Assembly: GCA_007182875.1 (NCBI GenBank)
Contig: AP019514.1
Span: 1,922,001-1,986,000, forward strand
Source of the DNA: Vreelandella sulfidaeris
Lineage (GTDB): Bacteria; Pseudomonadota; Gammaproteobacteria; Pseudomonadales; Halomonadaceae
DNA length: 64,000 nt
Reading direction: 5' to 3'
This document shows, one piece after another, positions 873 through 41,951 of the stretch. A model generated the notes under the pieces. That model had not been told where the DNA came from. It worked only from the letters and a program-made list of their open reading frames with translations, and did not search any database. Both the position numbers and the translations under genes were made by a program. Each line of letters begins with the position of its first letter. The stretch's first letter is position 1.

Positions 873-886
873 AGTAAGCACTTACT
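873..886. promoter_or_regulatory. Phage operator copy 1 with minus-strand promoter
   Basis: AGTAAGCACTTACT, perfect 5-base arms and 4-base centre, extended to 8-base arms (871-888). On the minus strand the 17 bases ending at the operator separate TGACTG (-35-like) from TAGTAT (-10-like), so a bound repressor would cover the promoter spacer of the 548-826 gene. Confidence 0.7.
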
Positions 887-1018
887 TACCAGTCATGCAG
901 GCAAAAATAGCGACTCGTAAAGAGCCGCCTAATATCGGAATATCAAACGAAAGATCGCTTGATGTTGCGTATGATAAACGAGCGTAGCAGGGCGGACAAC
1001 TGCCCCGACGCTGGCTGT

Positions 1019-1462
1019 CTACTTTCCTGACGTGGGACGAACGCAGGGTAAGCCTAGATGCTCCATGAGGTCGCACATAGTCTGCTGTGAATGAAACCGT
1101 CCTTTGGCTTTGGCAAAGCGGACGGCGAGTTCCGCGGTCTTCACCGTCTTGCGCGCCTCGCTGATCATGGTAGGGAAGTCGCGATCGGGACTGAGCACCA
1201 TGCGGATGTCTTCGAGGTAGCGCATTATCTGGCGTTCATCGGCTCGGGTCTCGGCGAGCTGTTCCTCGACCGCCTTGAGTTCCTGCCGGGTGACTTCGTT
1301 GCGCCGATCGGTGTCCTCGACTGCCTTCTGGATCGCCTCAGCGACGATACAACTGATTCGAGCCTGCTTCTGTGGCCAACCACCTTTGAAGCTGCGGGCG
1401 GCGGGTAGATTGATGACTTCACGAGCTGCCACGAGAGCGAGTTGGTCAATGTCGGCACTCAT
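1019..1462 (-). CDS. Hypothetical phage protein with coiled coil
   Basis: A 147-residue protein of unknown function. Residues about 55-80 are Glu/Gln/Ala-rich with heptad-like spacing and probably form a coiled coil. There is no signal peptide or membrane segment. The frame is unbroken. It lies 57 bases downstream of 1520-1858 on the same strand and is probably in one transcript with it and the glutaredoxin gene. Roughly 190 bases between it and the operator at 873 hold no gene I can support. Confidence 0.5.
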   Translation of the reverse strand: MSADIDQLALVAAREVINLPAARSFKGGWPQKQARISCIVAEAIQKAVEDTDRRNEVTRQELKAVEEQLAETRADERQIMRYLEDIRMVLSPDRDFPTMISEARKTVKTAELAVRFAKAKGRFHSQQTMCDLMEHLGLPCVRPTSGK

Positions 1463-1519
1463 GGGCTTGTCTCCAAAACATGGGCGTAACGCTCAAGGTC
1501 TTCTACGCGACAAAACCAC

Positions 1520-1858
1520 TTAACTCCCCTCCGGGGTCATGGATTCGCGGGTAGCGATCACCGCTTGGCGGATTGCCTGAGCTTTAACATTGGCCAGACT
1601 GGCGGCTGTGGTCTCATCCAAGACCTGCTGCATGGCGGGGCGAGCCTTCTCCGCCTCCTTCCACGCCTGACCATCGTCGCCCATCAGCATATCGTCTATG
1701 CGATAGACGGCGGATTGCAGTTGATGGCGTAGCCGGCCGTTCTGAGCCTCAAGCTCATTGACGTGATTGAACAGCGCTTCGGTGGTATCAGTGTCGATCC
1801 AGGGGTATTTCTTCATTTCCTGCTCGTATTGCTTGGCAATATCACTCTTCTGACTCAT
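1520..1858 (-). CDS. Hypothetical phage protein
   Basis: A 112-residue helical, charged protein of unknown function. Its ATG overlaps the stop codon of the glutaredoxin gene by four bases (ATGA), so the two are translationally coupled. No motif, signal peptide or membrane segment is visible. Confidence 0.55.
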   Translation of the reverse strand: MSQKSDIAKQYEQEMKKYPWIDTDTTEALFNHVNELEAQNGRLRHQLQSAVYRIDDMLMGDDGQAWKEAEKARPAMQQVLDETTAASLANVKAQAIRQAVIATRESMTPEGS

Positions 1859-2094
1859 GGCTGTGCGCTCAAATGAGCTTCAAACTCAGAAAAGCCGCCA
1901 ATATGAATGCCATCGATAAACACCTGGGGCACCGTCTCAACCGGTTTGCCAATTGCTTTCTGAAGATCAGCCTTTGTGATCCCTTTCTCGACTATATCGA
2001 TGTAGCAGCACTCTACCGATGGCAGTGAGTTGGCCAGGGCTTTCGCTTTATCGCAGAAAGGGCAGTTCGCTCTGCCGTAAATGGTGATAAACAT
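1855..2094 (-). CDS. Phage glutaredoxin
   Basis: A 79-residue glutaredoxin. The redox motif CPFC is at residues 12-15 and the family motif TVPQVFIDG with the following GG is in the C-terminal half (about residues 54-67), the normal arrangement and length for monothiol/dithiol glutaredoxins. Phage glutaredoxins commonly supply electrons to a phage ribonucleotide reductase, and this phage carries nrdA and nrdB at 17.8-21.3 kb, so that is its likely partner in the cytoplasm. It heads a small operon with 1520-1858. Confidence 0.88.
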   Translation of the reverse strand: MFITIYGRANCPFCDKAKALANSLPSVECCYIDIVEKGITKADLQKAIGKPVETVPQVFIDGIHIGGFSEFEAHLSAQP

Positions 2095-2107
2095 AGCAGC
2101 TCTCCGG

Positions 2108-2374
2108 TTACATGAAGTGGATCATCGCCTGAGCGATGGTGACGTTGTGTTCTTTGGCGTATGCCTCGATCTGAGCCATCTTGAGCCCGTTCTCGATAGC
2201 CACACGCGTCTGCTTGGTCTGCTTAGCGTTGCCACGGATTTCAGCCTTCTTGCTTCCACGGCGCCGCTTCGAGCCCTTGACTGCATAAACGCTGTTATTC
2301 AGCAGCGCCTGGCTCTCGTTGTGCTTTTGGTTTCTTACGTCTTGGCATGGTTTTATTTCCTCACGCCTCTTCAT
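2108..2374 (-). CDS. Small basic hypothetical phage protein
   Basis: An 88-residue frame, very Lys/Arg-rich in its first 50 residues. The 3' part (TRVAIENGLKMAQIEAYA) looks coding. The start is doubtful: a better ribosome-binding site (GAGGAA) precedes an out-of-frame ATG (about 2,347) whose frame begins MPRRKKPK and soon stops, which suggests a one-base frame error near 2,300-2,330. Function unknown; the basic N-terminus would suit nucleic-acid binding, but this is a guess. Confidence 0.45.
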   Translation of the reverse strand: MKRREEIKPCQDVRNQKHNESQALLNNSVYAVKGSKRRRGSKKAEIRGNAKQTKQTRVAIENGLKMAQIEAYAKEHNVTIAQAMIHFM

Positions 2375-2756
2375 GTTCTTGGTGTAGAGGCTTGCGTTGC
2401 GTTACTGGACAGAAAACCGGCAATGCGATCGATCTCGGCGTGCAGGTCATCGCTATCCAGTGCCCGACGTAACTGCTGGGCGATCTGGTCTTTCAGCTCA
2501 GCGGCGAAGGCACTTTCGTAACCCAGTAGATTGATGTATTCGCGGGCGAAAACATCTGGGTCCATGGGGTGTCGGTAGGTCTCGCTCTTCTCAGCAATCA
2601 ACATGCCAGCGGTGATGTGTCGTTTTCCTTCGCGGGTCTTGATGTAGTAGATCGGCTGCTGTTCGTTGCCCGCCACAATGTCGGCCAATTTGGGCGTGAA
2701 AGGGGTAATCCGAATAGCGCGGGTCGCCGAATGAAAAGGTTGTCGATGTCGGTCAT
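2371..2756 (-). CDS. Hypothetical phage protein (frame broken near start)
   Basis: The open frame runs upstream to 2,784, but its first 20 residues look non-coding. An ATG at 2,756 with GAGAC upstream begins MTDIDNLF and joins the main frame (ATRAIRITPFTPKLA) if one base is changed at the TTTT run near 2,735. The body is about 128 residues, soluble and unrecognised. It overlaps the downstream gene by four bases. The divergent operator at 2777-2790 lies just upstream. Confidence 0.5.
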
Positions 2757-2776: not shown

Positions 2777-2790
2777 AGTAACAACTTACT
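2777..2790. promoter_or_regulatory. Phage operator copy 2, divergent promoter region
   Basis: AGTAACAACTTACT, perfect arms. It is the only operator between divergent genes in the left part: on the plus strand it is followed by GATTATCT, a -10-like element for the RyR-domain gene; on the minus strand it is followed by TATACC, upstream of 2371-2756. Confidence 0.7.
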
Positions 2791-3298: not shown

Positions 3299-4893
3299 AT
3301 GGACACTGTTCTATTGAGTAGCTGTAACGATGCCAACGCTAGCAACGGATACCTGAAGCATGGCGCCCCGATGCGTCTGGCCACCGAGATCAGGCGCATG
3401 GGTCGCACCTGCAAAGTGATCGACTTGTTCACCAAGCTGAACGACAAGGCGTGGGAAATCCTAATCGACAAATATGTGGATAAAGACACCCGCTTGATTG
3501 GTATCTCCACCACGCTGCTGTCGACCTACTTCACAGGTGACGACCTGGAGCGTGAGGTTTACTTCTGGGGAATGCCTTATGAAATATTTCGTGAACGCAT
3601 TGCCATGATCCGCCGTCGTGCTCCGAATGCGCTGATTGTCGTTGGCGGCAGTCAGGTTGGGATAGAGACTGCTGCCACGCTGACGGACTACATCGGCATC
3701 TTCGACCTGTTCATCAGCGGGCAGGGCGAGGGGCCGATCAAGGCGATCATCCGGCATCTCTACGACGGCACCGACCTCAAGATCACCCGGGCTCATGATG
3801 TGCCGTTCGTGACGCAGGAGTCCTACCCTAACCATAACTTTAAAACCTCAGACATCGTGTGGCTGCCTGAAGACCTGATGGAGTATGGCGAGGGTGCTGT
3901 CGTCGAGGTGGCACGCGGCTGTGTGTTCAAGTGTTCCTACTGCACCTACGACCTGATCGGCAAGTCCTGGGGTGACATGGTCAAAGACCCTGGCGTGCTG
4001 CGTCGGGAGCTGATGCGCAACTATGAAATGTGGGGCACCACCCACTACATGATCCCAGACGACACCTTCAACGACTCGATCGAGAAGGTGCGGATGCTGC
4101 ACAAGGTCTTCACCTCGCTACCCTTCCAGATCGAGTTTGGCACCTACATTCGCCTCGACCTGTTCATGCGCAACCCGGACATGGCCAAGCTGCTGCTGGA
4201 GATGGGCATACGTGGCGGCAATCTGGGCATCGAGACGCTGAACAAGAAGGCCGGACGACTGATCGGCAAGGGCATGGGTGAAGAGCGCGTCAAGGAAACC
4301 GCTGCGCAGGTGCGTGAGGTGTGGGGCAATAAGGTCGTGATGCGGGCCAACTTCATCCTCGGCTTGCCGGAAGAGGATGAGGACTCGATGTATCGCACCC
4401 TGGAATGGCTCACCGATCCCGACTGCCCGTTCCACTACGCCGAGTTCAATGCCTTACGCATCGACCGTGACGCGCCCAAGAGCAAGATGGAGTTGGAGGA
4501 CATGAAGCGGCTCGGTTACACGTTCGAGAACCGGATGCTGTGGAGCCGCAAGAGTGACGGCATGTCATATCGACGAGCACAGGCGTTGAAGCTGGAGTTT
4601 AAGAACAAGATTTACCAGTCGCGACCCTACGCTGCAATGGTGATGGCCTTCGGTGTGCCTGATCGCAACAACGTGGGTATCTCGACCAGCGAGATTACTC
4701 GGATGCTCGACGCCAGGGTCGATCTGGTTACGTCACGCGGAGAGACCAAACCCTGGGTCGGATGATGCGCGAGCGAACTCGTCCCCGCACTGATCACTAC
4801 ATTCGCCGCCTTGTCACCGAAGAGCATGAGCCGCAAACGCTACTACCTTATGGCGTTGAGCCAGTGAAGCTGATCTCGCTTCCAGGTGCATAA
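3299..4893 (+). CDS. Radical SAM enzyme with B12-binding-like N-terminal domain
   Basis: The 488-residue open frame (3299-4765) has an N-terminal Rossmann-like region (residues about 1-190) resembling cobalamin-binding domains, then the radical SAM cluster motif C-x3-C-x2-C at residues 208, 212 and 215, and the usual GGNLGIET-like and FILGLP strands of the TIM-barrel. This is the layout of B12-dependent radical SAM methylases or rearrangement enzymes; no DxHxxG cobalamin ligand is obvious. A one-base slip near 4,753 (CCC) would extend it by 44 residues to 4,893, which read well as coding. GAGGG precedes the ATG. It follows the RyR gene on the plus strand, against the direction of the early operons. 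Substrate unknown. Confidence 0.85.
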
Positions 4894-6425: not shown

Positions 6426-6731
6426 TTATTTAGCGGCACTTTGTTCGAACGTCACAGAACTCAATCGACCTTTCGCAGCACAGAGCAGCCCGTCAAAGAC
6501 CAGCACCAATACCGCGACTGGGCCAACGATAAACATGCCGTATAACGCCAGCAGAGCGGTAACTAGATCGGAGTCAGCCAAGTGTTCTCGTAACATTAGC
6601 CACGAGACCTGGACGGCACGGATAATGCCGAGAGGAATGCTAAATAGCAGCTTGATGGCATTCACAGCAGAGACGCGGTAGTTGCTACCCATTTCAACCG
6701 GGAAGGCCCGGAAGGTGAGCTGGTTTGGCAT
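6426..6731 (-). CDS. Small phage membrane protein
   Basis: I start it at the ATG at 6,731 (MPNQLTFRAF); an in-frame GTG/TTG at 6,752-6,755 lies inside the operator and overlaps the stop of the exonuclease gene. About 101 residues, with a hydrophobic segment near residues 25-50 and a second near 60-85, so two membrane passes are likely. Function unknown. The operator at 6747-6760 sits 16 bases before the chosen start. Confidence 0.55.
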   Translation of the reverse strand: MPNQLTFRAFPVEMGSNYRVSAVNAIKLLFSIPLGIIRAVQVSWLMLREHLADSDLVTALLALYGMFIVGPVAVLVLVFDGLLCAAKGRLSSVTFEQSAAK

Positions 6732-6746
6732 GTCTTTCTTTTCATA

Positions 6747-6760
6747 AGTCACCAATTACT
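6747..6760. promoter_or_regulatory. Phage operator copy 3
   Basis: AGTCACCAATTACT (one arm mismatch). It covers the stop codon of the exonuclease gene and lies 16 bases upstream of the membrane-protein start, a position that would block transcription passing from one gene to the next. Confidence 0.6.
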
Positions 6761-8837: not shown

Positions 8838-9331
8838 TCAGAGAAGGTCGGTGCGAATGAAGGTGCGAATGTCGGCCATGTGATTCAGCGGTTTGCAGTC
8901 GACATTGACGTAATTGGACTGGCTGTCCATGTTGGGAAGAACGTGTCGGCATCGGCCGCCGTGTCGTGGATATAGGTCAGGATGATTTCGTGGCACAGAG
9001 CGCTTTCGATCACCTGCTTATAGACCTGAGCGCCGCCAATCACGAAAAGATGATCAACCATCGAACGCTCAGCGTTCTCCAACGCCACCTCGATGCTGCC
9101 GACACGGTTCCACTCAGTTGTGAAGATCGATCCGCCGCTAGCTAAGATGTAGTTGCGACGGTTTGGTAACGGTTTGCCGATTGACTCGTAGGTCTTGCGG
9201 CCCATCAAAACAGCGTGGTGCTCAGTGGTTTGCTTGAAGTGACGCATGTCCTCCGGCATTTTCCAGATCAGGTCGTTGTTACGACCCAGTTCCCAGTTAC
9301 GACCTACAGCGGCAATAGCGGTGATTTTCAT
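8838..9331 (-). CDS. folA: Dihydrofolate reductase
   Basis: Reduces dihydrofolate to tetrahydrofolate, needed after thymidylate synthesis by the phage ThyA at 15.6-16.6 kb. The first 149 codons are open: the substrate-site residues in WELGRNNDLIWKMPEDM (Asn/Asp/Trp), the NADPH-site GRKTYESIG and the FVIGGAQVY glycine pair are all present. A one-base slip near 8,930 (CCC) moves to a frame ending at 8,838, giving about 164 residues, the normal length. An operator lies 12 bases before the ATG. Confidence 0.93.
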
Positions 9332-9342: not shown

Positions 9343-9356
9343 AGTAATCGGTGACT
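9343..9356. promoter_or_regulatory. Phage operator copy 4
   Basis: AGTAATCGGTGACT (one mismatch), 12 bases before the dihydrofolate reductase ATG and right after a hairpin. On the minus strand the operator is followed by TTAGGTA-N5-ATG, the same arrangement as at 26,228 before gp47. Confidence 0.65.
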
Positions 9357-10183: not shown

Positions 10184-10197
10184 AGTAAGTTGTTACT
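10184..10197. promoter_or_regulatory. Phage operator copy 5
   Basis: AGTAAGTTGTTACT, perfect arms, followed by TACTG. It lies 59 bases upstream of the 9400-10125 ATG and 17 bases after the stop of the next upstream gene. Confidence 0.65.
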
Positions 10198-11052: not shown

Positions 11053-11067
11053 CTTGAATCAAGTATA

Positions 11068-11081
11068 AGTAATTGGTTACT
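11068..11081. promoter_or_regulatory. Phage operator copy 6
   Basis: AGTAATTGGTTACT, perfect arms; on the minus strand TATACTT follows as a -10-like element. The 14 bases and the flanking TATA are identical to copy 7 at 12,701. Confidence 0.7.
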
Positions 11082-12700: not shown

Positions 12701-12714
12701 AGTAATTGGTTACT
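12701..12714. promoter_or_regulatory. Phage operator copy 7
   Basis: AGTAATTGGTTACT, identical to copy 6, again followed by TATACTT on the minus strand. It lies 5 bases beyond the vapC stop codon. Confidence 0.7.
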
Positions 12715-16650: not shown

Positions 16651-16743
16651 TTAAATTCCTACTATTAGGTTGATGATCGGAGAAATATCAGCAGCGGTAA
16701 GCGTCAACATCACCAAGAACACAACGCCTTTGAGTAAAGTCAC
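16651..16743 (-). CDS. 30-residue hydrophobic peptide upstream of thyA
   Basis: Starts with GTG at 16,743 after a good AAGGA site and stops one base before the thyA ATG. The sequence ([20 protein letters not shown] onward) is hydrophobic along most of its length and could span the membrane once. It may be a leader peptide coupled to thyA or a small membrane protein. Operator copy 8 overlaps its start. Confidence 0.4.
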
Positions 16744-16751
16744 CAATTCCT
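16738..16751. promoter_or_regulatory. Phage operator copy 8 (degenerate)
   Basis: AGTCACCAATTCCT, two mismatches from the consensus. It pairs with copy 9, 33 bases away (about three helical turns), so two repressor dimers could sit on the same face. Confidence 0.45.
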
Positions 16752-16770: not shown

Positions 16771-16784
16771 AGTAACGTGTGACT
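16771..16784. promoter_or_regulatory. Phage operator copy 9
   Basis: AGTAACGTGTGACT, one mismatch. On the minus strand it is followed by TATATTTTTA, a -10-like element upstream of the thyA operon. Confidence 0.6.
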
Positions 16785-17739: not shown

Positions 17740-17753
17740 AGTATGCCGTTACT
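17740..17753. promoter_or_regulatory. Phage operator copy 10
   Basis: AGTATGCCGTTACT, one mismatch. It overlaps the last base of the nrdB stop region and precedes the MazG-like gene by about 124 bases. Confidence 0.55.
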
Positions 17754-18912
17754 TATACCTGTATGTCGAGAGCCACTTTGCGAAGTTTTTCCAAGTCAAG
17801 GGTGGGGTTCACTCGACCAAGCAGATACGAGCTAATCTCGGCCTCTGCGGGGCTGCCTGAACGTTGCCGCTGTAGAGGTATTTATTCACCCACTGAACTT
17901 GATGAGGCTCAGCAGTCGGGAACAGGGCAGGGATGCCGCCGCCCAACATCGTTTGGTTGGTGACGTTAGCCAGGAAGCCTTTGATGTGAGAGACGTTCAA
18001 GCCCGGTAACGTGCGTCCATTGGCAAACAAATGTTCCGCCCAAGCCACCTCCTGATCGAAGCACTCTTGGTAAATCTGCGTCACTTCCGGCAGCACCGCA
18101 TCAAAGTCCGCCTTCCACTCAGCGCCTTCCTTGCCGGTGGCAATGGTCTTCAGAACGTCTCCGATCGCCTTACGGTGGAGCGCTTCGTCACGGGCAATAA
18201 AGCGGATGATCTTTGAGTTGCCCGCCATCACGTTCAGCTTTTCCGTAAAGGCGAAAGAACACAGGAAAGACACATAGAACCGCACGCCTTCCAGTGCATT
18301 GACCGCTGCCAGCGCCTTGATGATCAGTCGACGCATCAAGCTGGGGTCGATCATGACCCGCTCATTGCGCGAAGGAACCACATGGTAGCCGTAGCCATAA
18401 ACCGAGTAGATCATGCCGATCTCGATCAGCTCGTCGTAGGCTTGGGTTAATGCTTGAGCGCGATTGATGATGTTCTCGTCGACCACGATGGAGTCAAACA
18501 CTGCCGCAGGGTCAGGGAAGACGTTGCGGATAATGTGGGTGTAAGACTTATCGTGAATCGCCTCGAATGCCGGCCAGACGACGGTAAACGTCTCAAGCTC
18601 AGGGATTGAGATCAGGTGTCCAAACGCAAGCATCGGAGCGCGAGCCTGGACCGAGTCGAGTAGCGACTGATACTTCAGGTTGGCCAAGAAGATATAGCGC
18701 TGGTCTTCTGTAAGGGTGTTCCAAAACTCCAGCTTGTCCCGGCTCAGATCGACCTCTTCAGGACGCCAGAACTGGGCGAACTGCTGGTCAGTTGCCTTAT
18801 CCAAGAAGCGATACTTGACCCGGTCATACCGGGCCACGTTGAGACCTGAACCGAGGAACATCGGCTCAGTGGTTGCATCGACTTGTTTGGCGTTAAAGGT
18901 GGTATAACTCAT
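17753..18912 (-). CDS. nrdB: Class I ribonucleotide reductase beta subunit
   Basis: Provides the diiron-tyrosyl radical for dNTP synthesis. Di-iron ligands are visible: ETFTVVWPAFEAIHDKSYTH (Glu and Glu-x2-His) and RDEALHRKA (Glu-x2-His), and GVRFYVSFLCSF precedes the second half. The frame is open from 18,912 to about 17,870, then a slip in GCAGCCCCGC leads to a normal C-terminus (GRVNPTLDLEKL) ending at 17,753; about 386 residues. The start lies 25 bases after the nrdA stop, so nrdAB is an operon. Confidence 0.95.
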
Positions 18913-18937
18913 CGCTTACTTACTCCTTGGGAGAAAA

Positions 18938-21344: not shown

Positions 21345-21358
21345 AGTAAGTTGTTACT
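21345..21358. promoter_or_regulatory. Phage operator copy 11, nrdAB promoter
   Basis: AGTAAGTTGTTACT, perfect arms. On the minus strand a 17-base stretch containing the operator (GTAAGTAACAACTTACT) separates TAGCTA (weak -35) from TATCAT (-10), so repression would occlude the nrdAB promoter. Confidence 0.75.
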
Positions 21359-22754: not shown

Positions 22755-22768
22755 AGTAAGCTGTTACT
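22755..22768. promoter_or_regulatory. Phage operator copy 12
   Basis: AGTAAGCTGTTACT, perfect arms, identical to copy 16. It lies 13 bases before the 22,742 start, too close for a normal promoter plus leader. Confidence 0.65.
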
Positions 22769-26227: not shown

Positions 26228-26241
26228 AGTCAGTTGTTACT
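26228..26241. promoter_or_regulatory. Phage operator copy 13
   Basis: AGTCAGTTGTTACT, one mismatch, 12 bases before the gp47 ATG. On the minus strand it is followed by TTAGGTATTAAC-ATG. Confidence 0.65.
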
Positions 26242-30207: not shown

Positions 30208-31268
30208 TTAGAGGTCGTCCAAACCGTTCAGGATGTCGTCTAGGTCATCGTCGGAGGCGGCAATCTCAGCAGCAAGATCAACAGCCGGAGCTGGGGTAGC
30301 GGCAGGGCAGGAGTCGCAGCAGCTACAGGAGCCGGGTCTTCTTCCCAGGGCGCCTCTTCCATCAGCTCGCCTTCCAGTGCTTCCAGTTCTGCTTCTGCGG
30401 TATCAGCAGCAGTGGCAGCAGTATTCAGAAGGGCAGCGCCGCCAGTAGCAGCGGCGGTAGTAACGGTCGCAGCAACACCCACAGCAGCAGGGCAGAAGCA
30501 GCGGCACCTTCTGGCGGAGTGAAGAACCCAGCAGGGCCATCAGTTCCGGTCGCCGCTACAGCAGGTGCGCTAAGACGTGCCATTGCAGGGGCGGGCAGAC
30601 CAGTGACCGCAGTTGTTGCACGAACTGCCTTCAGCAAGCCTTGCTCGGATTCCTGAGAGCAGTAAGCAGCAAGATCAGTCACCGCTGACTTATCGTATTC
30701 GACAGCCGTAGATTTCGGGGGAGACAGCAACCGAGTATTCGGTATCGATACCAGAGCCAGTCTTGGTGACGATGAAGTCGTAGCCAGACGCAGGGTTGGT
30801 GATTTCTTCGCCTTCGTCCAGATAGACCATCATCTGATCGACCATGGAGTCAAACACGCCAGCGGGCAACTCAACGACCACAGGCTTGTTGGGTTCAGCG
30901 CTATCACGCATCAGCGCGTTAACCAGAACACGACCGGAGGCTTTCGCCTGACCCAGCAGCTTCTCCATGCCCAAGTTGCCGGTGTCTTTGGCAACCTTGA
31001 TGCCTTCGTAAATCGCCGAGCAGACAGGGCATTCCTTACCGTAAGTCTTATCGGTGCAAACGTAGACCGCAGCCAGTTTGCTTTCCTTGTCTTTGACGTA
31101 GTGCATGCCAAAGTCGTGGTAGAACACGTCAGGCTCCTTCCAACCCGGCAGAACACGGATGCGGTTCTTACCAGCCTGGAAACGGACGGGTTTGATGTAT
31201 TGCGCTTTCTTAGCAGCCTGCTCAGCTTTACGGTTGTTCAGGCGGTTTTTAAGATCAGCCAGTGACAT
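30208..31268 (-). CDS. gp32-like single-strand DNA-binding protein, frame broken
   Basis: Starts MSLADLKNRLNNRKAEQAAK (basic LAST-like N-terminus), followed by RFQAGKNRIRVLPGW, a zinc-binding CTDKTYGKECPVC and the OB-fold core. Three slips in the Ala/Pro-rich linker (30,300-30,720) precede an acidic tail DDDLDDILNGLDDL ending at 30,208, the protein-interaction tail expected of T4 gp32-type SSBs. About 353 residues. Its leader carries operator 14, a TATTAT -10 and the ACACTGAAA element. Confidence 0.88.
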
Positions 31269-31337: not shown

Positions 31338-31351
31338 AGTCAGCGCTTACT
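31338..31351. promoter_or_regulatory. Phage operator copy 14, ssb promoter
   Basis: AGTCAGCGCTTACT, one mismatch. On the minus strand it is followed directly by TATTAT, a strong -10-like element, 70 bases before the ssb start. Confidence 0.75.
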
Positions 31352-31971: not shown

Positions 31972-31985
31972 AGTCATCACTTACT
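31972..31985. promoter_or_regulatory. Phage operator copy 15
   Basis: AGTCATCACTTACT, one mismatch; 78 bases before the UvsY-like start, with GTATAAGATTG downstream on the minus strand as a possible -10. Confidence 0.65.
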
Positions 31986-32848: not shown

Positions 32849-32862
32849 AGTAAGCTGTTACT
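32849..32862. promoter_or_regulatory. Phage operator copy 16
   Basis: AGTAAGCTGTTACT, perfect arms. On the minus strand ATAAGC follows, 42 bases before the 32,807 start. Confidence 0.7.
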
Positions 32863-32918
32863 TAATGGGCTGCATATTGAAAAGTTGCAGAGACGGTAAG
32901 GTTTTTCGAGCAGGCATG

Positions 32919-32942
32919 AAAAAGCCCGCATGGTAGCGGGCT
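32919..32942 (-). terminator. Strong Rho-independent terminator
   Basis: AGCCCGC (32923-32929) pairs with GCGGGCT (32936-32942) and on the minus strand TTTTTC follows. It ends the transcript carrying the two membrane-protein genes at 32962-33601. Confidence 0.85.
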
Positions 32943-32961
32943 TCTGGGGCTTATAGATAAG

Positions 32962-33601: not shown

Positions 33602-33757
33602 AGGCGTTCGTTTCTCCTGTGAGTCTTCATTGGGTCTTTAGACATATCGGCCGACCGGAAAGTTTAATTGCCTTGAGACTGCCACAGTGTAGCCGGTTAG
33701 CCAATAAACGAAGAGGGCAGGCTTACCAAAGCCACTGGATCGCCTGCCATTGGAACT

Positions 33758-36700
33758 TTAGATGCCTGCCGCCTCGATCACCTTGCTGAGACAGGCTTTC
33801 AGATCGGCGGCCATTTCTGGGTTAAAGTAGATGCGCCCCTGGCTGAAGCCGTAGACAATCGTGCGGTCAGCTCCGGCGTCATAGCGACTCTTGCCAATCA
33901 AATCACCTGCTTTCTTCTTCTGGTCGTCATTGAAGTGGCGAGTCGCAAGCGAACCCATCGACAGGATCACTGGCGGATCGAGTTCGGCGACTTCGCGGTC
34001 AAGAAACTCGGCACACGCGCTGATTTCGTCATTACTAAAGCCATCGACGTCACCTTCTTCTTGCGCTTTCGGCTTCACGAACTTCATCAACGTGGTGTAG
34101 TAGAAATTCTCGTGCGTCAGCCCGGCAGCCTTGATTGCCTCGTTCCATGAAGTGTAGGGCTTGCCCGACACCAGCTTGCCATCGTTCTCGTCCGACCAAG
34201 AGGGCGCATCGAAAACCACCATGATCTTTGACTTCTTGCCGATGCGGGGAACGCAGGTCCAGCGGTCGTCGAACAGGTCGGCATATTCGTTCACGATGCT
34301 CAGCAGCCGCGCATGAGTCCCTTTATCCACGATCATATCGCGGTCGATCGTGGCCACCTTCTGGATTACACCTGGCATTAGCGTTAGTTGGTCTTTAAGG
34401 CGTGATTTATCAGTAGCAGGGGGTGAGCCAGGGGTGATCGTTGCAAAGGCTCCTACGCGCTCCAAATGGTCGATAACGCGCTTGTTTACGATGCGACGAT
34501 TAACCGAGAGGCTGAACTGCGTCATATCAGTGAAGTGGCCGCCAGCTTTGTCACGACCCTCGACAATCGCTGCCGCTCCCTTCTCGCTAATGTTGGCCAC
34601 GGAGTTGAACGGGGCAACCAACATATCCCTTACCGGAAACAGCATCACGGCGGACTTCGTAGCGGTGGGTCGATGTGTTGACGTCAGGTGGGCCAATGCG
34701 CAGATTGTATTTAGCCGCGTCACCTACCAGAGCAGGCATACGGTCGCTATCCAGCACCGACATACAGGAAGCGAAGAACTCCGCTGGGTAGCGCACCTTG
34801 AGCAGCATCGTCCAGTAGGAAAGCAGGGTGTAGGCAACGGAGTGACTGGCGTTAAAGCCGTAGCCAGCGAACTTCTCGATCTTGTCGAACAGCGCCTCAG
34901 AGTCCACCGCGATCATTCCTGAGTGGTCACGGCAGCCATCGACCCACTGTTGACGCACTTTGGCCATCATATCGGCGTCTTTTCTTACCCATCGCTTTCC
35001 GCAACCCGTCGGCTTGAGCCATCGTGAACCCGGCAAGCTCCTGAGCGGCCTTCATGACCTGCTCCCTGGTAAACAAATACCCCCTTTGTGCTTTCAAAGC
35101 ACTGGGATCAGGCTGGGGTGAGGGTAAGAGGGCGCTTCGAACCCCTTGTGACCGAGACATATTGCTCCAACATGCCTGATTCCATTGGGCCAGGGCGATA
35201 CAGAGCGGTCGCTGCGACCAGATTGTCGAACGTGAGGCGCCCAGCGTAAGCAAGGCTGGTCAGCAACCCCTTCATACCTGCCGATTCGAACTGGAAGATG
35301 GCGGTTGTCTGGCCAGCGGAGAACGCATCCAGCACGTCCGGCTGATCCAGCGGTTCACGCAGTAGGTTAATCTCAACCCCGTGCCGTGTTTTCACCCGCT
35401 CGACGGTCTGCTGAATGATGTCCAGGTTCGAGAGACCCAGAATATCCAGCTTCACCATGCCCATGTCCTCACAGACGCGCTTGTCCCAGTTAATGACTGG
35501 CTCACCGTCGCGGGATTCAACCACTGCCATTTCACGTAGGGGCCGGCCACCGACAATGACACCCGCAGCGTGTTTGCCGTAAGAGCGCATTGCTCCTTGT
35601 AACTTGACGCTATGGTCGAACAGAGCAGGATGAGCTTTGGCATACGCTTGAACTTCGGCAACTGCTTCGTAAGCGGATTCGAGCGTGGCGTCAGCGGGGA
35701 TATGCTTTGAAACCGCAATCTCCATCGACGAAAGCCCATGGACACGGCCAACGTCACGCAATGCAGACGCCGCACCAAGCTGGGAGTAGTTACTGATACC
35801 AGCGACACGATCCATGCCGAACGTCTCACGCAAGTAGCGGATCACTTCATCACGGCGAGAACTCATAAAGTCGAGGTCAGCGTCGGGCAAGTCCAGACGG
35901 TCGGGGTTAATGAATCGTTCGAAGATCAGGCCAAAGCGGATCGGGTCGACGTCGGTGATGCCCACGAGATAAGCGACCAGCGAACCGCCCACAGAACCCC
36001 GTCCTGGCCCAACAGCGATGCCATTATCTTTTTGACCAAGCCACGATCTGTCGCACCAGTAGGGAAGTAACCGGCAAAGCCCATGCTACTGAGAACGTTC
36101 AGTTCGAACTTGAGGCGATCACGATAGACCGCGACTTCAGCTCCAGTAGGGCGATGGCCCATGACGGGCATCGAGAAGCGCTCTTTCCAGCCTTCTTTGC
36201 TGAGACGAACCAGCTCGGCGTTCTCATCTTCAGCCAGTGTGGGTAGCGAAATCGGCAGCTTGTGCCACTCATAGGTGACTTGTTCCTTCAGCCACTCATG
36301 ATCACGTAACAGGGCGCTGTTGATCGTGCAGTCGGTGCGCTCTGAAAAGCTCTTGAGAGCGCCTGCTAGGTCACGAAGGGTTTTAGGGTGATGATCACGC
36401 ACGTAGGGCTTCTTGGCCGCCCAGTGGTCAACTTGCGTGTTTTCAGTGACAACGCGGTAAACATCGCGTGCGTCCGCCTCGCCATCCTTGTAGTAGCTGG
36501 GCAAATACGCGATAACGCGCTGCCCCGTTGTCGCTGCTAACTCCATCACACGCCGATTGACGCTATCGTAATACGGAGTATGGATTGGGTGCAGTGCTAA
36601 AACGCTCAAATCTGCGTTCTGAGCGTTGGGAATTTGTGAGACTACTTCCGCATAGTTCGGAGCGTGAAACACGCTGTAAGAGTCGCTATTGAGCGATACC

Positions 36701-37109
36701 ACGTTGCCCCGACCAATCACTGCGTTCAGCTCTGCAAATCCGGTGCGTGCTTTGTAGTAGAAGAACTCCTGGCTGTAGGCTTGCGACAGCATATCGAAAA
36801 CGTCAACCAAGCCCCTTGTCATTCTTGATGATCAGGTCGTGGTAGCTCTGGATTCGGCTTGTCTTCGTGGGTATCACCCTTCTTGGGCTTACGATGCCGT
36901 GGATCAGGCACAATGCGCACTCGAATACCGATCATCGGCTTGATTCCAGCGTCTTTGGCGGCCTTGGAAAAGGCAATCATGCCGCTGATATTCATGGTGT
37001 CGATTAAGCAGGCGGCGTCATAGCCGAGTGCTACGGCCCGGTCGACGATGTCTTTGGGCTTCAATGTCGACTCACCGACACTGAAATGGCTTCTACCGAA
37101 CAGAATCAT
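33758..37109 (-). CDS. DNA polymerase III alpha (DnaE-like) with C-terminal UDG-like domain, frame broken
   Basis: Five or more frame pieces give about 1,117 residues. N-terminal PHP-like domain (MILFGRSHFSVGES, with the usual TDHG replaced by IDTM, so probably inactive); polymerase core with GPGRGSVGGSLVAYLVGI, PDADLDFMSSRR (catalytic Asp-x-Asp) and SYGKHAAGVIV; then FAGYGFNASHSVAY and a helix-hairpin-helix region. The last 170 residues (34,270-33,758) are not tau- or beta-binding sequence but look like a family 4/5 uracil-DNA glycosylase: MVVFDAPSWSDEND, then GKPYTSWNEA, and ELDPPVILSMGSLATRHF. The phage's replicative polymerase, paired with the DnaQ-like exonuclease at 6.8 kb. Confidence 0.88.
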
Positions 37110-37632
37110 GGCTTTCCTTGATGGTTAGTGTGGCGATAAAGCGGGTAAGGGTTACGACGCCTAGAAGCACGCCAATTCCGAGGGCATCGGAGACGAGCCC
37201 TGATGCGGTGGAACGGCTGCAACGGTGCTTCTGCATGACGTTTTCCACGAGGTCTCGCTTACGAGCGGAGCCTTGCTGTAACAGGTCTCGGAATACGTCG
37301 GCATAGGCGGCTTGGGTGCGGAACTCTTCGAAAGGATTTTTGCCAGCGCGTAGTTGCTCGCGAGCATTGGCGAAGGTGAACCCCTTCCGATTGAGAAGTA
37401 GGGCTTGGTCTTTGATGCGATCACTGACATCGGCCAATGCAATGTGAATCTGGTCATCCTGATCGGGATTGACCGTCGCAAAACTGACTGATAAAAACGC
37501 CGCTCGAGCCTTTGGACGTAATAACTTTGTCCTGGTCTGAGCGGCGGTATGACAGCCCCCTTGACGGGGGCAGTTGCGACAGGTGCTCGATTCAGGCGAA
37601 TAAACGACAGCGCTTGTGTGACAACCGAGCAT
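37093..37632 (-). CDS. Hypothetical protein with N-terminal Cys cluster
   Basis: 179 residues starting MLGCHTSAVVYSPESSTCRN with Cys at 4, 18, 21 and 26 (CRNCPRQGGC), a probable metal site. The C-terminal part (KRDLVENVMQKHRCSRSTAS) looks like a helix-turn-helix. It overlaps the polymerase start by 17 bases. The ribosome-binding AGGTGA that decides its start lies inside operator copy 17, so repressor binding and translation initiation share DNA. Confidence 0.55.
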   Translation of the reverse strand: MLGCHTSAVVYSPESSTCRNCPRQGGCHTAAQTRTKLLRPKARAAFLSVSFATVNPDQDDQIHIALADVSDRIKDQALLLNRKGFTFANAREQLRAGKNPFEEFRTQAAYADVFRDLLQQGSARKRDLVENVMQKHRCSRSTASGLVSDALGIGVLLGVVTLTRFIATLTIKESHDSVR

Positions 37633-37636
37633 AATA

Positions 37637-37650
37637 AGTCACCTATTACT
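37637..37650. promoter_or_regulatory. Phage operator copy 17
   Basis: AGTCACCTATTACT, one mismatch. On the minus strand TTAACA (37654-37659), 17 bases and TATTAT (37631-37636) form a textbook promoter with the operator as spacer, but the -10 overlaps the ATG at 37,632, so the transcript would be leaderless or start inside the gene. Confidence 0.7.
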
Positions 37651-37655
37651 TACTG

Positions 37656-38901
37656 TTAAGAACCGAAGATACGATCAGCAATTTCACTTACGGCCACTGA
37701 TGACGTGGAAGGCATCTTGTTGATGAACGCCCGCATGATGCCTGCTTTAAAATCACCACCGAACAGGGCACCCAACTTGGCTGCGTAGAGCAGTTCGCGG
37801 GGGCCGATGGTGTTGGTGATCTCTCCGCGGTCATAGGACTGACGCACACGGTCGGCGAACGTCACCAGCTCTTTAGCTTTCGCCTCTGGAATCTTGGCTT
37901 TACGCTCCAGCATTTGAGCCTCGTCGTCCCTTGTCCATGTAGCTGGTCTTAGTGACGATGCCGAAACGCGAGTAGTTAGCGGCGTTCTGGAGGTTGGTGC
38001 CTTGATACAGACCCGTCTCATCGCCAGCGCCGTTCGTGTTTCCAGTGGCAACAAAGCGGAACTGCGGGTGCGGATCAACACGACGCCAGTCATGGGGCGC
38101 TTCTTTGATGATTAACGGCTTACCTTCGAGAACGGGCTGATAAACGCCCAATACTTGTGGGAAAGCGAAGTCGTATTCGTCAGCCAAGTAAACCCAACCA
38201 AAGCGCATGGCCATTGCCAGTGGACCCGGCTCGAAGTAGGTGCCCGATTCGTTAGCAAGCATCTGGCCAATGATGTGTGCCTCTTCCGTGTTCGCGGTGT
38301 GCTGAATACGGATGAAGGGGCGGTTGGTGTAGGCTGCATACTGTTCCCAAGCAGTCGACTTACCCGTGCCAGCGTGACCCCAGAACATCGCAGGAATGTT
38401 GTGATCTAGCGCGGCGATACAGTCACGTAGTAGTTCCGGCATCCAGATAAACTCTTCATCAACCTCCGGCACCATATCCTGGGCATCGTGAGTCTCGAAC
38501 ACCGCAACTGGGATCGAAACAGAAGAGGGCAAGCCCTGGATATTGGGGATCAGCTTCACAACGTCCGCTGTGCGGATACCGTAGTCAGCACCGCGCTTCT
38601 TGAGCGGCACAACACGGGAGAAGCTGGTGAAACGCCTGCCATGTGGGCTTTGATACCCTCACCGCTGGCCGCTTCTTCAGCCTTCTTCTTCTCCAGTGCC
38701 TTCTTAGCTTGCTCAGAGCATAGGGGCGCCTGGGAAGCGCTCTTGGTATTCCGACAGGCTCACTGAAGGGTGATTCTTCTTCAGGTAAGTCTGGATGATG
38801 TGAACAGCAGTGCCGTCCAACTGACAGATCGGCCGGCCATCCTCAGAAGTCAGAGGGTAAGGAAAGGCTTCAGAAGTAGCAGCAGTAGCAGTAGTGGTCA
38901 T
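37656..38901 (-). CDS. CobS-like AAA+ ATPase, frame broken
   Basis: Three frame pieces (slips near 38,715, 38,610 and 37,935) give about 415 residues. N-terminal domain with LTSEDGRPICQLDG, then the AAA+ core: Walker A WGHAGTGKSTAWE, Walker B WVYLADEYDFAFP and sensor FRFVATGNTNGAGD. It matches the CobS subunit of aerobic cobalt chelatase and MoxR-type ATPases. CobS-like genes occur in T4-like cyanophages and other large phages; here it pairs with the CobT-like gene just upstream, so they probably form one ATP-driven complex. Confidence 0.88.
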
Positions 38902-38918
38902 TGTGCGGGTCTCAAATA

Positions 38919-38932
38919 AGTAATGGGTGACT
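38919..38932. promoter_or_regulatory. Phage operator copy 18
   Basis: AGTAATGGGTGACT, one mismatch, 18 bases before the cobS-like ATG; it lies between the cobT-like and cobS-like genes. Confidence 0.65.
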
Positions 38933-38999
38933 TATGTCGCGTTACAAGTGAATGATACGACACGCAGCGCTGGTGTAAAACGCTACGTGTCACGGTTAC

Positions 39000-41360
39000 T
39001 CAATTCAGCAGCATTGCCGAGAGTTCGGTGATGATCTTCGTGGGCAGCTCGGACACGTTATCGATCACGATATGTTTTGGGTAATACTGCTTAACATCGT
39101 GGGTCTCGATGCCGATACCCAGTGTCTCAATACCCACGCTTTCAAGCTCAGTTACCACGTTCTTCAGGTGTTCATCTGCGCGTCCGTCATGGCCATAGGA
39201 AGTGTAAGCGGAAGCCATTGCGGGCTGACCATCTGAAAGCACAATCATGATCTTGCGTTCTTCCTGGCGTCCACGAAGGATATTACCGGCAATCTCCACG
39301 CTCTCACCGTCGGCGTTGTTACGCATCGAGACGTAGGGGATGGCGGCTACACGCATTTCCGCTGTGGGCGTTAGGCGTTCATCAAAAGATTTGAAGATGG
39401 GCATGAATAGCGGTTCGACACGATCAAAGCCACCAGCAAACTTGGGGTTCTTCTTCAGCACGGCTTCCAGTTGATTGTAAGCGTCACGGTGCATATCGCC
39501 GTCTGTGCCGGTGGTGAAGCCCATTACCTGTGTCTTGATATTAATGCGTTCCAGGGCGTGGCATAGGGCGTAGGCGGCGTCTCCCGCTTTGACGATTCGG
39601 TCACGCGAGTTCATCGAGCCTGAGCAGTCCACCAACAGCATGACAGCGGTGTTCTTGGTGCGAATCTCTTCCTTGCGGCGAAAAACCCGGGTGTCTCCTG
39701 TCTGGAGCTTGTAAAGCCCCGCGCTGTGCAGGCGTCCACTGCGGAAACCAGGCACAAACATCGAGCGGTTACGGGCGACCAGCAGTCGCTCCAGGGACTT
39801 CGACATTACCCCGATACGGTCGCTGTTTTCCTCGCGTAGTCTCCGCTGGCGGTTCTTGGCGTATTCTGTGCGAGCGGTAGGGATTTTGAAGGTTTCGATT
39901 ACATCCTTCTCACTCGAAAAGGGCATATAGCCAGCTTGTTCCAGTGAGGATGCGGCCCCGTCGCTGATTACGCTTTCTAGTGCCGAGTCGTAGGTCTCAA
40001 CCTTCTCGATTTCCTCTAACAAGCTTTTTCATGCTCGCCTTCGGTTCCATCATTGGTAACAAAGTCGGGCGTGGGTGGGGAGAGCTGTCGGCGCGCTCGT
40101 GTTTATCCGTGGTGGATTTCTTGTCGCGGCTTTCGTCTTCGTCATCATCACCTTCGAAGTCGTCGTCATCATCGCCATCTTCATCATCGAATGAGCCCCA
40201 ATCGCTATCGTCATCGTCAGGCTCACCCTCAGCGTCATCATCGCCATCAGACTCGGAGTCTTCTGCTTCGCCTTCTTCATCACTGTCGCCGCTTGAACTT
40301 GAGCCTGACGCATCAGCTTCCTCGTCGCCTTCCTCTTCGGAATCAGATTCGCCGTCCGAGTCACCATCGTCTTCACTTTCTTCAGGCTCATCGTCAGAAT
40401 CACTTGAAGACCCACTGCCGCCAGAATGGTCGGACTTCTCGGTGGATTCTTCACAATCACTACCGTCGGACTTCTCAGGCTTTTCCTCGCTCTCTTTCTC
40501 AGGCTCATCAAAAATACTGTCGCCGGAGTAGCCTTCTGATTCTTCAGACTTCGATTCACCAGTAGTAGCACCAGGGCGTCATCACCCTCGTCGCCTTCTT
40601 CGCCATCATCAGACTCGCTAGGCTTGGATGGCTTCTCCATCGGATCAGCTTTCTTGGCTTTCTCTTTCTTAGCCTTACGCTCGTTGGTTTCAACGTCTGC
40701 CAGAATCTCGCGGATCGTGTTGGCCAACTTGAGGGATTGCAGTGATGAATTGATGCTCTCCAGGCTTTCAGCGAGCGGAGCAAGACCCTCATACACCTCT
40801 GGAATCAGCTCCCATTTGTCAGCCATAAACTCTTGAGCGGCTTCCTGTCCAGACAATGCGCGAATGCCCGGTGTAGCAAGCGCACGAACGAAGAACCGAG
40901 CCTGTGAGCTATCATCAGCCTCCGTGTCGTAGCCCTTAATGTGCTTGTCGAAAGACCGCTGAAAGAAATGCTTAATGGCGAATTCCAGGGTCTTGTCGAT
41001 GTTACGAGTGGAGCCAGCAAAGGCGTTCTTCATCTTCCGTTCAATGAAGGTGTCTTCTACGATATTGTGGAGATTGGCGATGCGCTCTTTGTGGGCACGT
41101 TCGATAATTTTGGCGTCAGTGAAGAGTAGGTGAGCGACCTCGTGATCGACAAAACCCTTGATCGCTGTCACCAATTCAGGGGGAGACTGATCGCTGATAG
41201 AGGGGATATTGACGCGCTTGGCTTCGAGGGTGCGTTCGTCGTATTCAACAAATGCCTGGATGCCAACCTGAGTCACTTTGATGCCCTTGTTAGCGAGCAT
41301 CTTAACGACCAGCGCAAGTGAACTACGTAGCTCACCGATATTTGTGTGCTTCTTGGCCAT
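39000..41360 (-). CDS. CobT-like VWA/metallopeptidase-like protein, frame broken
   Basis: About 786 residues after joining frames across an Asp/Ser/Glu-rich linker (40,030-40,580). N-terminal domain: MAKKHTNIGELRSSLALVVK with HEVAHLLF, an HExxH-like zinc motif. C-terminal von Willebrand A domain with the MIDAS motif LLVDCSGSMNSRDR, then MGFTTGTDG and VLSDGQPAM. This is the CobT architecture (peptidase-like region, acidic linker, VWA). With the CobS-like ATPase it forms a chelatase- or MoxR-VWA-type remodelling machine whose phage target is unknown. Operator 19 is 25 bases upstream. Confidence 0.87.
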
Positions 41361-41384
41361 GTCTTTTCCCGTTTTAGATAATTA

Positions 41385-41398
41385 AGTAATTTGTTACT
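41385..41398. promoter_or_regulatory. Phage operator copy 19, cobT-like promoter
   Basis: AGTAATTTGTTACT, perfect arms. On the minus strand TCGATA, 17 bases (GTAAGTAACAAATTACT) and TAATTA give a promoter with the operator as spacer. Confidence 0.72.
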
Positions 41399-41415
41399 TA
41401 CTATCGATTATATAG

Positions 41416-41447
41416 AAAAGGACTGGCGGAATACGCTCAGTCCTTTT
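41416..41447. terminator. Bidirectional Rho-independent terminator
   Basis: AAAAGGACTG (41416-41425) pairs with CAGTCCTTTT (41438-41447): a 10-base stem with A and T flanks on both strands. It ends the 41469-41696 transcript before the cobT-like promoter. Confidence 0.8.
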
Positions 41448-41468
41448 GTCTATCCTATCCTGCGCCTC

Positions 41469-41696
41469 TTAGGAGGAGTAGATAAGGCATCCCTCACCTG
41501 ATATAGCACTGAAATGAGCCACGCGACCCTCGCTCAGAATGGCGATCTGACCACCGTCTGACAAGAATACCATCTGCTCGGCTTCTTCCAGAAAGTCAAT
41601 GAACTGCTCATGGTTGATGCTTGTTGTATCTTTCGCCATTCTTGCGGCCAACTCCAGTAGACCTATGGAAAACAGAGTAAGCAATGACTTACTCAT
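41469..41696 (-). CDS. Small phage protein next to the repressor, possibly leaderless
   Basis: 75 residues, MSKSLLTLFSIGLLELAARM at the start, then an acidic middle. First gene left of the repressor, so it takes the place of Cro-like or first early genes, but no DNA-binding motif is visible. Operator copy 20 lies within codons 3-7 of the gene, and a promoter (TTGCAA 41728-41733, 18 bases, TACTAT 41704-41709 on the minus strand) would start transcription within a base or two of the ATG. Confidence 0.55.
   Translation of the reverse strand: MSKSLLTLFSIGLLELAARMAKDTTSINHEQFIDFLEEAEQMVFLSDGGQIAILSEGRVAHFSAISGEGCLIYSS
41676..41689. promoter_or_regulatory. Phage operator copy 20
   Basis: AGTAAGCAATGACT, one mismatch, inside the first codons of 41469-41696. 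A weaker match (AGTAAGACGTTTTA, 41706-41719) lies 30 bases further right, over the -10 of that gene's promoter. Confidence 0.6.
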
Positions 41697-41923
41697 GTCA
41701 CTTATAGTAAGACGTTTTAGGCAACGCTTGCAACGATTTTCTTAGCAAGAAAATACATTCAATTGAGGCGATTAGCTGTATGTATAAATGGCTTTCGGGC
41801 TCAAAAACTTAGACCCCTTTGTTAGCGCACAAACAAATTCCACTTGAAACGCAGCTCCCGAGACTAGATTTCTAATCATCATAATTAATTTTAATAAATA
41901 TATGAAAAATAAGTAACGGCTTC

Positions 41924-41951
41924 TTGACTCAGTAAGTCGTTACTATAAGAA
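41924..41951 (+). promoter_or_regulatory. Repressor promoter with embedded operator copy 21
   Basis: TTGACT (-35, 41924-41929) and TAAGAA (-10, 41946-41951) flank a 16-base spacer made of the perfect operator AGTAAGTCGTTACT (41931-41944). The repressor therefore very probably represses its own gene. A weak second match (AGTAACGGCTTCTT) overlaps the -35 from the left at 41912-41925. Confidence 0.8.

Follow-up and report, generated by a model that had tools for sequence, protein, structure and literature searches.

A small HTH_3 protein as candidate master repressor at dispersed symmetric operators along a 110-kb prophage of Vreelandella sulfidaeris

We analyzed a stretch of 64,000 nucleotides of the Vreelandella sulfidaeris genome (assembly GCA_007182875.1, contig AP019514.1, positions 1,922,001 to 1,986,000 of the forward strand), hereafter called the window, in which an earlier reading of the sequence alone had noticed many copies of the palindrome AGTAA-N4-TTACT. 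We propose, with a probability of about 0.85, that these palindromes are the operators of a distributed lysogeny switch run by a 135-amino-acid (aa) protein with an HTH_3 helix-turn-helix (HTH) domain. The sites are part of an integrated prophage of 109,686 bp, and the proposal is built on what was observed of their occurrence, placement, conservation, restriction to this element and statistical tie to the HTH family.

With up to two mismatches allowed, AGTAA-N4-TTACT matched 46 places in the window, compared with a mean of 14.8 in 100 shuffles (standard deviation 3.3, maximum 22). In the genome as a whole, the core pattern AGTMAN4TKACT occurred at 48 places. Of these, 39 were between C1:1858986 and 1963944 and nine were distributed over the remaining 4.37 Mb, which makes the density about 170 times higher inside the element than outside. 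The same pattern read backwards occurred at 15 places genome-wide. The motif is thus not equally frequent in host DNA, a point for which the sequence-only reading had proposed such a scan. Palindrome-constrained expectation-maximization (EM) gave the full site as rTAAGTAA-N4-TTACTTAy, with 48-50 sites in the element and 24 in the window (Table 1), so that the palindrome first described is real but at 14 bp too short. The conserved part spans only about 18-22 bp and the flanks mostly differ. All 21 sites listed originally were found at their positions, ten of them with perfect arms ("about half") and the one at 16738 with two mismatches, as described. "At least 21 copies" was likewise correct, although the position model added three window sites that had been left out (cores at 18907, 30677 and 41912). 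No sites had been seen to the right of 41,951, and only five matches, each with two mismatches, were found there. The extent of 41 kb, in contrast, was an artifact of the window, as the sites run about 65 kb further left. A site does exist upstream of the XRE-type gene, but as two adjacent weak sites at 41912 and 41931 rather than one. The operators at window 11060-11084 and 12693-12717 have the same cores and the same near flanks (CAAGTATAAGTAATTGGTTACTGCC), which suggests a local duplication.

The element occupies C1:1855101-1964882 and ends in perfect 96-bp direct repeats, each containing a whole tRNA-Pro(ggg) (left copy C1:1855101-1855196, right copy C1:1964787-1964882). The gene for an integrase arm-binding domain adjoins the left copy, and the 3' end of the HTH_3 gene is about 370 bp short of the right copy. 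Genes for primase, terminase, head scaffold, tape measure, tail J and tail fibre are in the left part; the right part carries those for thymidylate synthase, ribonucleotide reductase, RNase H, 5'-3' exonuclease, a gp32-like protein, CobS/CobT-like proteins and DnaE. The comparison against named records was made with DnaE only: a piece of DnaE shares 77% and 73% identity with its counterparts in two viral contigs of ~105 kb and 51-57% with those of SSU5, RHEph10 and 100-110-kb elements of Acinetobacter and Aeromonas. The gene order HTH, cobT, cobS, dnaE is common to the window, the Acinetobacter plasmid and the phage-plasmid Cyrano. By its DnaE, CobT/CobS-like and class I ribonucleotide reductase genes, the element appears to be kin of the superfamily of SSU5-like phage-plasmids and ~110-kb prophages. 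Since it is chromosomal in the present assembly, integrated between the two tRNA-Pro repeats, we call it kin rather than a phage-plasmid; plasmid replication genes were not looked for.

The motif was examined in 24 relatives, which were hand-picked for length (most at least 85 kb) and mostly for an HTH homolog. SSU5, nickie and ANB28 were added without such a homolog as named kin, and G058 as the nearest relative. EM found the motif or a drifted form in 22 of the 24, a fraction that is no prevalence given this selection, with 18-61 sites and 426-1344 bits each; first-order Markov controls (two per genome) gave 0-15 sites and at most 247 bits. In nickie and ANB28 the motif was not found by EM (two sites and one site, respectively). 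A de novo search with 5-letter arms and spacings of 0-14 also placed the motif type or a drifted form on top in most relatives; in SSU5 and the Acinetobacter plasmid another palindrome scored higher. The forms were TAAGTAA or TAAGTMA in G058, G059, G061, G069, G077, G083, G087 and G088; AGTCA or GTCA in G060, G063, G065, G075 and G076; TCAGTC in G084; AATCA or ARTCA in Roseospira, RHEph10 and G090; AGTMA in G085; and AGTAA in Paracoccus, Aeromonas and, weakly, Acinetobacter. In a separate count of the core pattern, 11 of 12 viral records had 10-46 sites compared with 0-4 for the reversed pattern; the twelfth, a 36-kb record with a distant HTH relative (G062), had none. The motif-bearing superfamily members were from enterobacteria, Aeromonas, rhizobia, Roseospira and Paracoccus as well as uncultured hosts, with Acinetobacter as a weaker case. 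Other dispersed palindromes were noted in three of these records: AAACA-N3-TGTTT in SSU5 (JQ965645; 14 copies, L245-L250), GCCTA-N2-TAGGC in the Paracoccus contig (12 copies, L243, L244, L263, L264, L283, L284) and TTTGT-N3-ACAAA in the Acinetobacter plasmid (10 copies, L225-L230).

The sites are dispersed before many genes. Genes were called with a simple codon model in 23 genomes, that of the prophage included, and 879 of the 965 sites were intergenic where about 170 were expected (831 of 915 in the relatives). For sites at most 150 bp from a start, the median distance to the start was 29-65 bp. The claim that nearly all sites are in short gaps between genes agrees with the 48 of 50 intergenic sites in the prophage itself. 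The expected number here was 19.1, the weakest contrast among the genomes, because split genes leave much of the DNA uncalled. Conservation was examined with reciprocal-best ortholog pairs by comparing sites before one gene with sites before its partner in 12 genome pairs, and sites were kept before orthologs at p<0.01 in nine of them. The prophage shared 17/19 sites with G058, 12/17 with G059 and 8/10 with G061; among relatives the counts were 18/26 for G058/G059, 32/34 for G083/G087, 19/25 for G063/G065, 16/21 for G060/G063, 11/15 for G063/RHEph10 and 7/11 for Aeromonas/SSU5.

Several sites had been described as lying exactly in the spacer of a promoter. In the window and the prophage this was not supported: window 30000-43000 had 9 consensus promoters where 9.4 were expected from shuffles, and of 29 oriented sites in the prophage none occupied the spacer between two hexamers that both matched in at least 4/6 positions (two did so in the direction away from the gene). 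The arrangement did emerge when the 23 genomes were pooled. Among the 724 sites with an unambiguous downstream gene, 40 were flanked by TTGACA and TATAAT with at least 4/6 matches and 17-bp spacing towards the gene, compared with 7 in the direction away from it. Where sigma-70 hexamers are recognizable, the site often fills the 17-bp spacer, with 23 cases at one offset and three at the next. The promoter-spacer arrangement is true for a minority of sites only. The pooled genomes also show a T-rich stretch followed by G/C-rich bases 21-28 nt upstream of the operator centers and absent on the gene side; these may be the terminator tails of preceding operons or an unusual or phage promoter element.

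The protein encoded at window 42011-42418 is the best candidate for the binder of the palindromes. It matches Pfam HTH_3 at 26.3 bits (cut-off 23), in keeping with a phage repressor of the HTH_3/XRE type, and no Pfam domain beyond HTH_3 was found in its 135 aa. A self-cleaving repressor of the LexA/CI type was considered and rejected, since the C-terminal S24 peptidase domain was not found. The AlphaFold model has a mean predicted local distance difference test score of 76, with residues 11-60 above 90; helix 3 comprises residues 35-41 and residue 33 is just before it. Foldseek matches include DdrO, 434 Cro (E 2.4e-3, template modeling score 0.79 by target length), controller proteins and Stl; the single match at E<=0.001 is a protein other than 434 Cro. 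A profile search of PDB sequences returned the immunity repressor 8bny (E 3e-5), with 434 repressor above the usual threshold (E 0.017-0.039). Two sets of related records, with two records in common, were examined for HTH homologs, which were found in 10 of 12 and 26 of 33, respectively. Those without a match in the larger set were G058, G066, G070, G091, SSU5, nickie and ANB28. The Acinetobacter plasmid and Cyrano have the homolog at the same place, before cobT.

The distribution of this protein largely follows that of the motif. For a phylogenetic profile, SSU5 and G058 were excluded beforehand and the proteins of G063 were searched in two profile passes against every called protein. Forty proteins were present in at least 18 of the 21 motif-bearing genomes, and the HTH protein (20 of 21) was the only one of them absent from both nickie and ANB28. 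In 19 of 20 genomes, the 150 bp preceding the HTH start contain at least one operator; in G085 the HTH start was not located. In 18 of the 19 genomes with such an operator, the best operator before the HTH gene scores below the median of its own genome, as expected for an autoregulated repressor.

The base preference of the operators was examined in relation to the sequence of the HTH protein. Over 22 genomes, 105 alignment columns were scored against the fraction of A at operator base 4 (AGT[A/C]A), the SSU5 motif being paired with the repressor of Cyrano. Residue N33 ranked first of the 105 (adjusted R2 0.59, 0 of 1000 permutations) and V36 sixth; for operator base 2 the first-ranked residue was R44 (0.78). 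The A fraction at base 4 was 0.22-0.84 in genomes with N33 (n=10) and 0.01-0.12 in those with K/R33 (n=7). Asn with adenine and Lys or Arg with guanine are the usual contacts, and by hand alignment we take residue 33 to be the equivalent of residue 27 in the 434 repressor, which contacts a base. For a held-out test, the prediction was written first and one 16-21-kb piece per genome was scored with up to two mismatches, chance sites included. C exceeded A at base 4 in all 11 held-out K33 genomes, ten of which were blind; the sites of the other, G064, had already been seen before the prediction was made. One of the two held-out N33 genomes gave a clear result (G086, A 0.50 over C 0.25). For G068 (S33) no prediction was made, and its A and C fractions were 0.39 and 0.54.

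The phylogenetic profile, the residue-base association with its held-out check, the ortholog conservation and the sites before the repressor gene together support the reading in which one repressor acts at many dispersed sites, its own gene included. This had been suggested by the sequence-only reading and appears to be the best explanation of the data. What does not stand is its restriction to a 41-kb replication programme, since the sites are found all along the ~110-kb prophage, also in the terminase, tail and primase regions, and in related phages. We infer dimer binding, repression, autoregulation and an inducing signal as follows. The 42011-42418 protein would bind rTAAGTAA-N4-TTACTTAy as a dimer just upstream of many transcription units along the prophage and block transcription start at each. 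The replication, nucleotide-metabolism, packaging and tail regions would then each be repressed directly and not via one early switch. The two weaker sites before the repressor's own gene would set its level by negative autoregulation, and loss or inactivation of the repressor would free the operons together. As the protein lacks an S24 domain, induction would use another route. In regard to SOS control, the prophage has one CTGT-N8-ACAG box, and an AT-rich box at most 120 bp from a called gene was not found in it. In four relatives (G069, G076, G085 and G088; L291, L340, L318 and L321), a small conserved protein with a core of ~80 aa is encoded behind a LexA-type box of this form; three cases were found via the box and that of G085 independently by profile. 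This protein is a candidate SOS-induced antirepressor, and none was seen in the present element.

We think it likely that the arrangement is general, such that a superfamily of ~100-115-kb temperate phages and phage-plasmids keeps lysogeny by one cascade-free architecture, in which a short HTH repressor and 18-61 symmetric operators diverge together through a small recognition code. Most members would have one operator every 2-4 kb, and both early and late genes would be preceded by them. The code would pair Asn33 with AGTAA and Lys/Arg33 with AGTCA. Phages lacking the repressor would have operators left as fossils, as in SSU5, or no operators at all, as in nickie and ANB28. If this is true, immunity groups could be readable from sequence.

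A number of observations weigh against these readings. SSU5, with about 30 sites, has no detectable HTH homolog, and no gene is annotated in it between 41776 and the tRNA before cobT; it nevertheless retains its operators, as would be expected of a phage whose repressor was lost. Nor was a homolog found in G058 (53 sites) or G066 (24 core sites). Their DnaE genes are 5.5 and 6.2 kb from the contig start while the HTH-DnaE separation in the window is 6.0 kb, and we suspect that the contigs end near the expected place of the HTH gene. With SSU5 and G058 counted, the HTH protein is in 20 of 23 motif-bearing genomes, and three further G063 proteins (in 17, 16 and 15 of 21) are also absent from both motif-less phages. 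Paracoccus is the one exception among the 20 genomes in having no site near its HTH gene, and in the AT-rich DNA of the Acinetobacter plasmid there are only 18 sites, with another palindrome scoring higher. Conservation before orthologs was not significant between the prophage and G083 (4/7, p 0.12), Paracoccus (3/7, p 0.4) or SSU5 (3/11, p 0.7). As for residue 33, its other variants follow no simple rule in 5 of the 22 genomes (A fractions of 0.08 and 0.85 for T, 0.25 and 0.80 for Q, and 0.49 for L). The held-out N33 genome G067, whose HTH protein is nearly identical to that of G069 in the first set, had A at 0.27 under C at 0.50, and several held-out recognition helices were the same as ones in the first set. 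The permutations ignore relatedness. On the best tree of the HTH protein, which is poorly resolved, K/R33 changed at least five times; only one independent pair of these changes is on supported branches and the phylogenetic test was not significant. The association of residue 33 with base 4 may therefore be caused by shared ancestry.

Alternative explanations were considered in light of the same evidence. The HTH protein could bind the sites yet be a Cro-like regulator of the lytic phase, or mainly a factor of superinfection immunity, with lysogeny kept by other means. Its small size, with HTH_3 as the only domain found, and the weakness of the operators before its gene would fit such a role. 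We regard it as unlikely, however, as CYRAN_45, the homolog in Cyrano, is among 14 Cyrano genes listed at 5-fold or more over local background and is labeled a putative repressor (PMC9928086). The location of the HTH gene next to the integrase and attachment region also argues against it.

A second possibility is that a plasmid-style global regulator that also acts in partition binds the palindromes both as operators and as centromere-like sites. KorB of RK2 has both of these roles, and the element has phage-plasmids among its kin. ParA-family genes occur in the Aeromonas, SSU5 and Cyrano relatives, and SSU5 has genes for ParB-like nucleases. This KorB/ParB-like scheme is nevertheless quite improbable: the HTH protein is the only one of the 40 widespread proteins that neither nickie nor ANB28 has, a residue at its recognition helix shows the best association with the base preference, and the sites are mostly shortly before gene starts throughout the genomes.

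About equally improbable is that the palindrome is a promoter or activator element of the lytic programme, used for example with a sigma factor encoded beside dnaE in some relatives. The occurrence of sites before many genes and the T-rich stretch upstream in the direction of transcription would suit an activating role, and two relatives, Acinetobacter and RHEph10, have an annotated sigma-70-family gene between cobS and dnaE (83111-83776 in Acinetobacter NZ_CP027182, gp045 in RHEph10). On the other hand, nickie keeps dnaE, cobS, cobT, primase and nrdA, and ANB28 keeps dnaE, while both are without the motif and the HTH protein. The symmetry of the site and its frequent position in the spacer of recognizable sigma-70 promoters, where it would occlude them, also count against this reading, as does the expression of CYRAN_45 in bacteria carrying the Cyrano prophage (PMC9928086). 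That the palindromes are a repeat element spread by copying and without regulatory function, as their high copy number in one element might suggest, is scarcely credible given the short conserved stretch with mostly different flanks, the retention of sites before orthologous genes in phages with a protein identity of about 60%, and the coherent form of the motif in each genome.

Some further features of the element were noted. The dnaE, cobT and large ribonucleotide reductase genes are apparently broken across several frames (window 33758-36822, 39000-41360 and 19469-21073, respectively). The called coding density of the element is 0.62, compared with 0.69-0.88 for relatives, and the completeness of the host genome is stated as 74.6%. 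The split genes may reflect assembly indels or decay. A 488-aa radical SAM protein encoded at window 3299-4765 (+), on the strand opposite to most prophage genes, is possibly a cargo gene product. An HD-domain protein (HD_4) is encoded inside the prophage at window 11077-11955 (-), and an SSU5 gene is annotated as guanosine polyphosphate hydrolase/synthetase.

Table 1. Predicted operators, candidate repressor gene and right attachment repeat in the window. Scores are bits from the position model.
Feature	Window position	Strand	Score (bits)	Context
Predicted operator	873..886		27.0	before 548-826(-)
Predicted operator	2777..2790		27.4	
Predicted operator	6747..6760		24.4	at start of 6426-6755(-)
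Predicted operator	9343..9356		24.6	before 8885-9331(-)
Predicted operator	10184..10197		27.6	
Predicted operator	11068..11081		23.1	
Predicted operator	12701..12714		23.7	
Predicted operator, weak	16738..16751		14.2	paired with 16771
Predicted operator	16771..16784		17.9	before 16257-16649(-) and thymidylate synthase gene 15659-16231(-)
Predicted operator	17740..17753		23.6	before PRA-PH-domain gene 16828-17634(-)
Predicted operator	18907..18920		23.8	at start of ribonucleotide reductase small-subunit gene 17809-18912(-); newly listed
Predicted operator	21345..21358		27.9	before ribonucleotide reductase large-subunit region 19469-21073(-)
Predicted operator	22755..22768		24.1	before open reading frame 22407-22742(-)
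Predicted operator	26228..26241		23.6	before open reading frame 25572-26216(-)
Predicted operator	30677..30690		21.8	newly listed
Predicted operator	31338..31351		21.4	before gp32-like gene 30690-31268(-)
Predicted operator	31972..31985		26.4	
Predicted operator	32849..32862		18.5	
Predicted operator	37637..37650		27.9	before 37093-37632(-) and dnaE region
Predicted operator	38919..38932		24.5	before 38713-38901(-) and cobS-like AAA gene
Predicted operator	41385..41398		26.9	before cobT-like gene 40050-41360(-)
Predicted operator	41676..41689		19.0	before called gene 41469-41639(-)
Predicted operator, weak	41912..41925		16.6	upstream of repressor gene, center 92 bp before start
Predicted operator, weak	41931..41944		14.0	upstream of repressor gene, center 73 bp before start
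Candidate master repressor	42011..42418	+		135-aa HTH_3 (XRE-type); modeled recognition helix 35-41; specificity-linked N33, V36
Right attachment repeat	42787..42882	+		96 bp with complete tRNA-Pro(ggg), identical to left-end C1:1855101-1855196

SSU5-like phage-plasmids can carry resistance integrons, and the available part of the same account that deals with life-cycle regulation names no operator set for them (PMC11652158). In the literature searched we found no description of dispersed operators in SSU5-like elements, with an earlier mention in the D6/SSU5 genome papers being possible. The shared motif and the readable specificity position would provide a testable master repressor for each lineage. 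They may also allow predictions of mutual immunity between elements and of the loss of the repressor from individual ones.

In lambda-type control the operators are clustered at a single switch. The 434-like HTH domain and the palindromic operators are reminiscent of the lambda/434 immunity region, whereas the operators here are spread over the whole element. Dispersed-operator control itself is known from P1, L5 and SPbeta. The C1 repressor of P1, which lives as a plasmid, acts at 22 operators across the genome that are asymmetric 17-mers (PMC8546580). The sites described here are instead symmetric palindromes of 18-22 bp in numbers of 18-61 per genome. L5 and other cluster A phages have more than 20 sites (stoperators) for their immunity repressor, distributed genome-wide over promoters and short gaps between genes, and the site motif and the repressor diverge together within the clade (PMC9283540, PMC6550527). 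The L5 sites are asymmetric 13-mers in one orientation, bound by a monomer with two DNA-binding domains, unlike the present palindromes, whose location mostly shortly before gene starts is consistent with blocking initiation. The likeness to P1 C1 and L5 drawn in the sequence-only reading is thus apt for control at many sites; L5 is comparable only in how it works, as the sites here are symmetric, and the asymmetry of the P1 operators is not shared.

In the large prophage SPbeta, a repeated element, SPBRE, was described in intergenic promoters, and chromatin affinity purification with sequencing later identified it as the site of the master repressor MrpR (PMC10516654). MrpR has a tyrosine-recombinase fold and a 15-bp motif from nine or ten peaks, which differs from the 434-Cro-like HTH and the 18-61 sites in the present case. 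A further related case is CYRAN_45 of the SSU5-like phage-plasmid Cyrano in E. coli LF82, which was called a putative repressor and was transcribed 10-fold over the prophage background in an LB culture of the carrier, and Cyrano itself was induced 39-fold by ciprofloxacin (PMC9928086). The part of that account concerned with CYRAN_45, as available, mentions no operators or regulon. CYRAN_45 is of the same family as the window HTH protein (profile E 2e-28), is encoded at the same place between integrase and cobT, and has a weak operator-like site with four mismatches 30 bp upstream, although Cyrano is a plasmid and the window element is chromosomal. The present system is set apart by the symmetry of the sites, their number per genome, their spread over distant hosts and the readable specificity position, and it offers a natural comparison between distributed and single-switch control of lysogeny.

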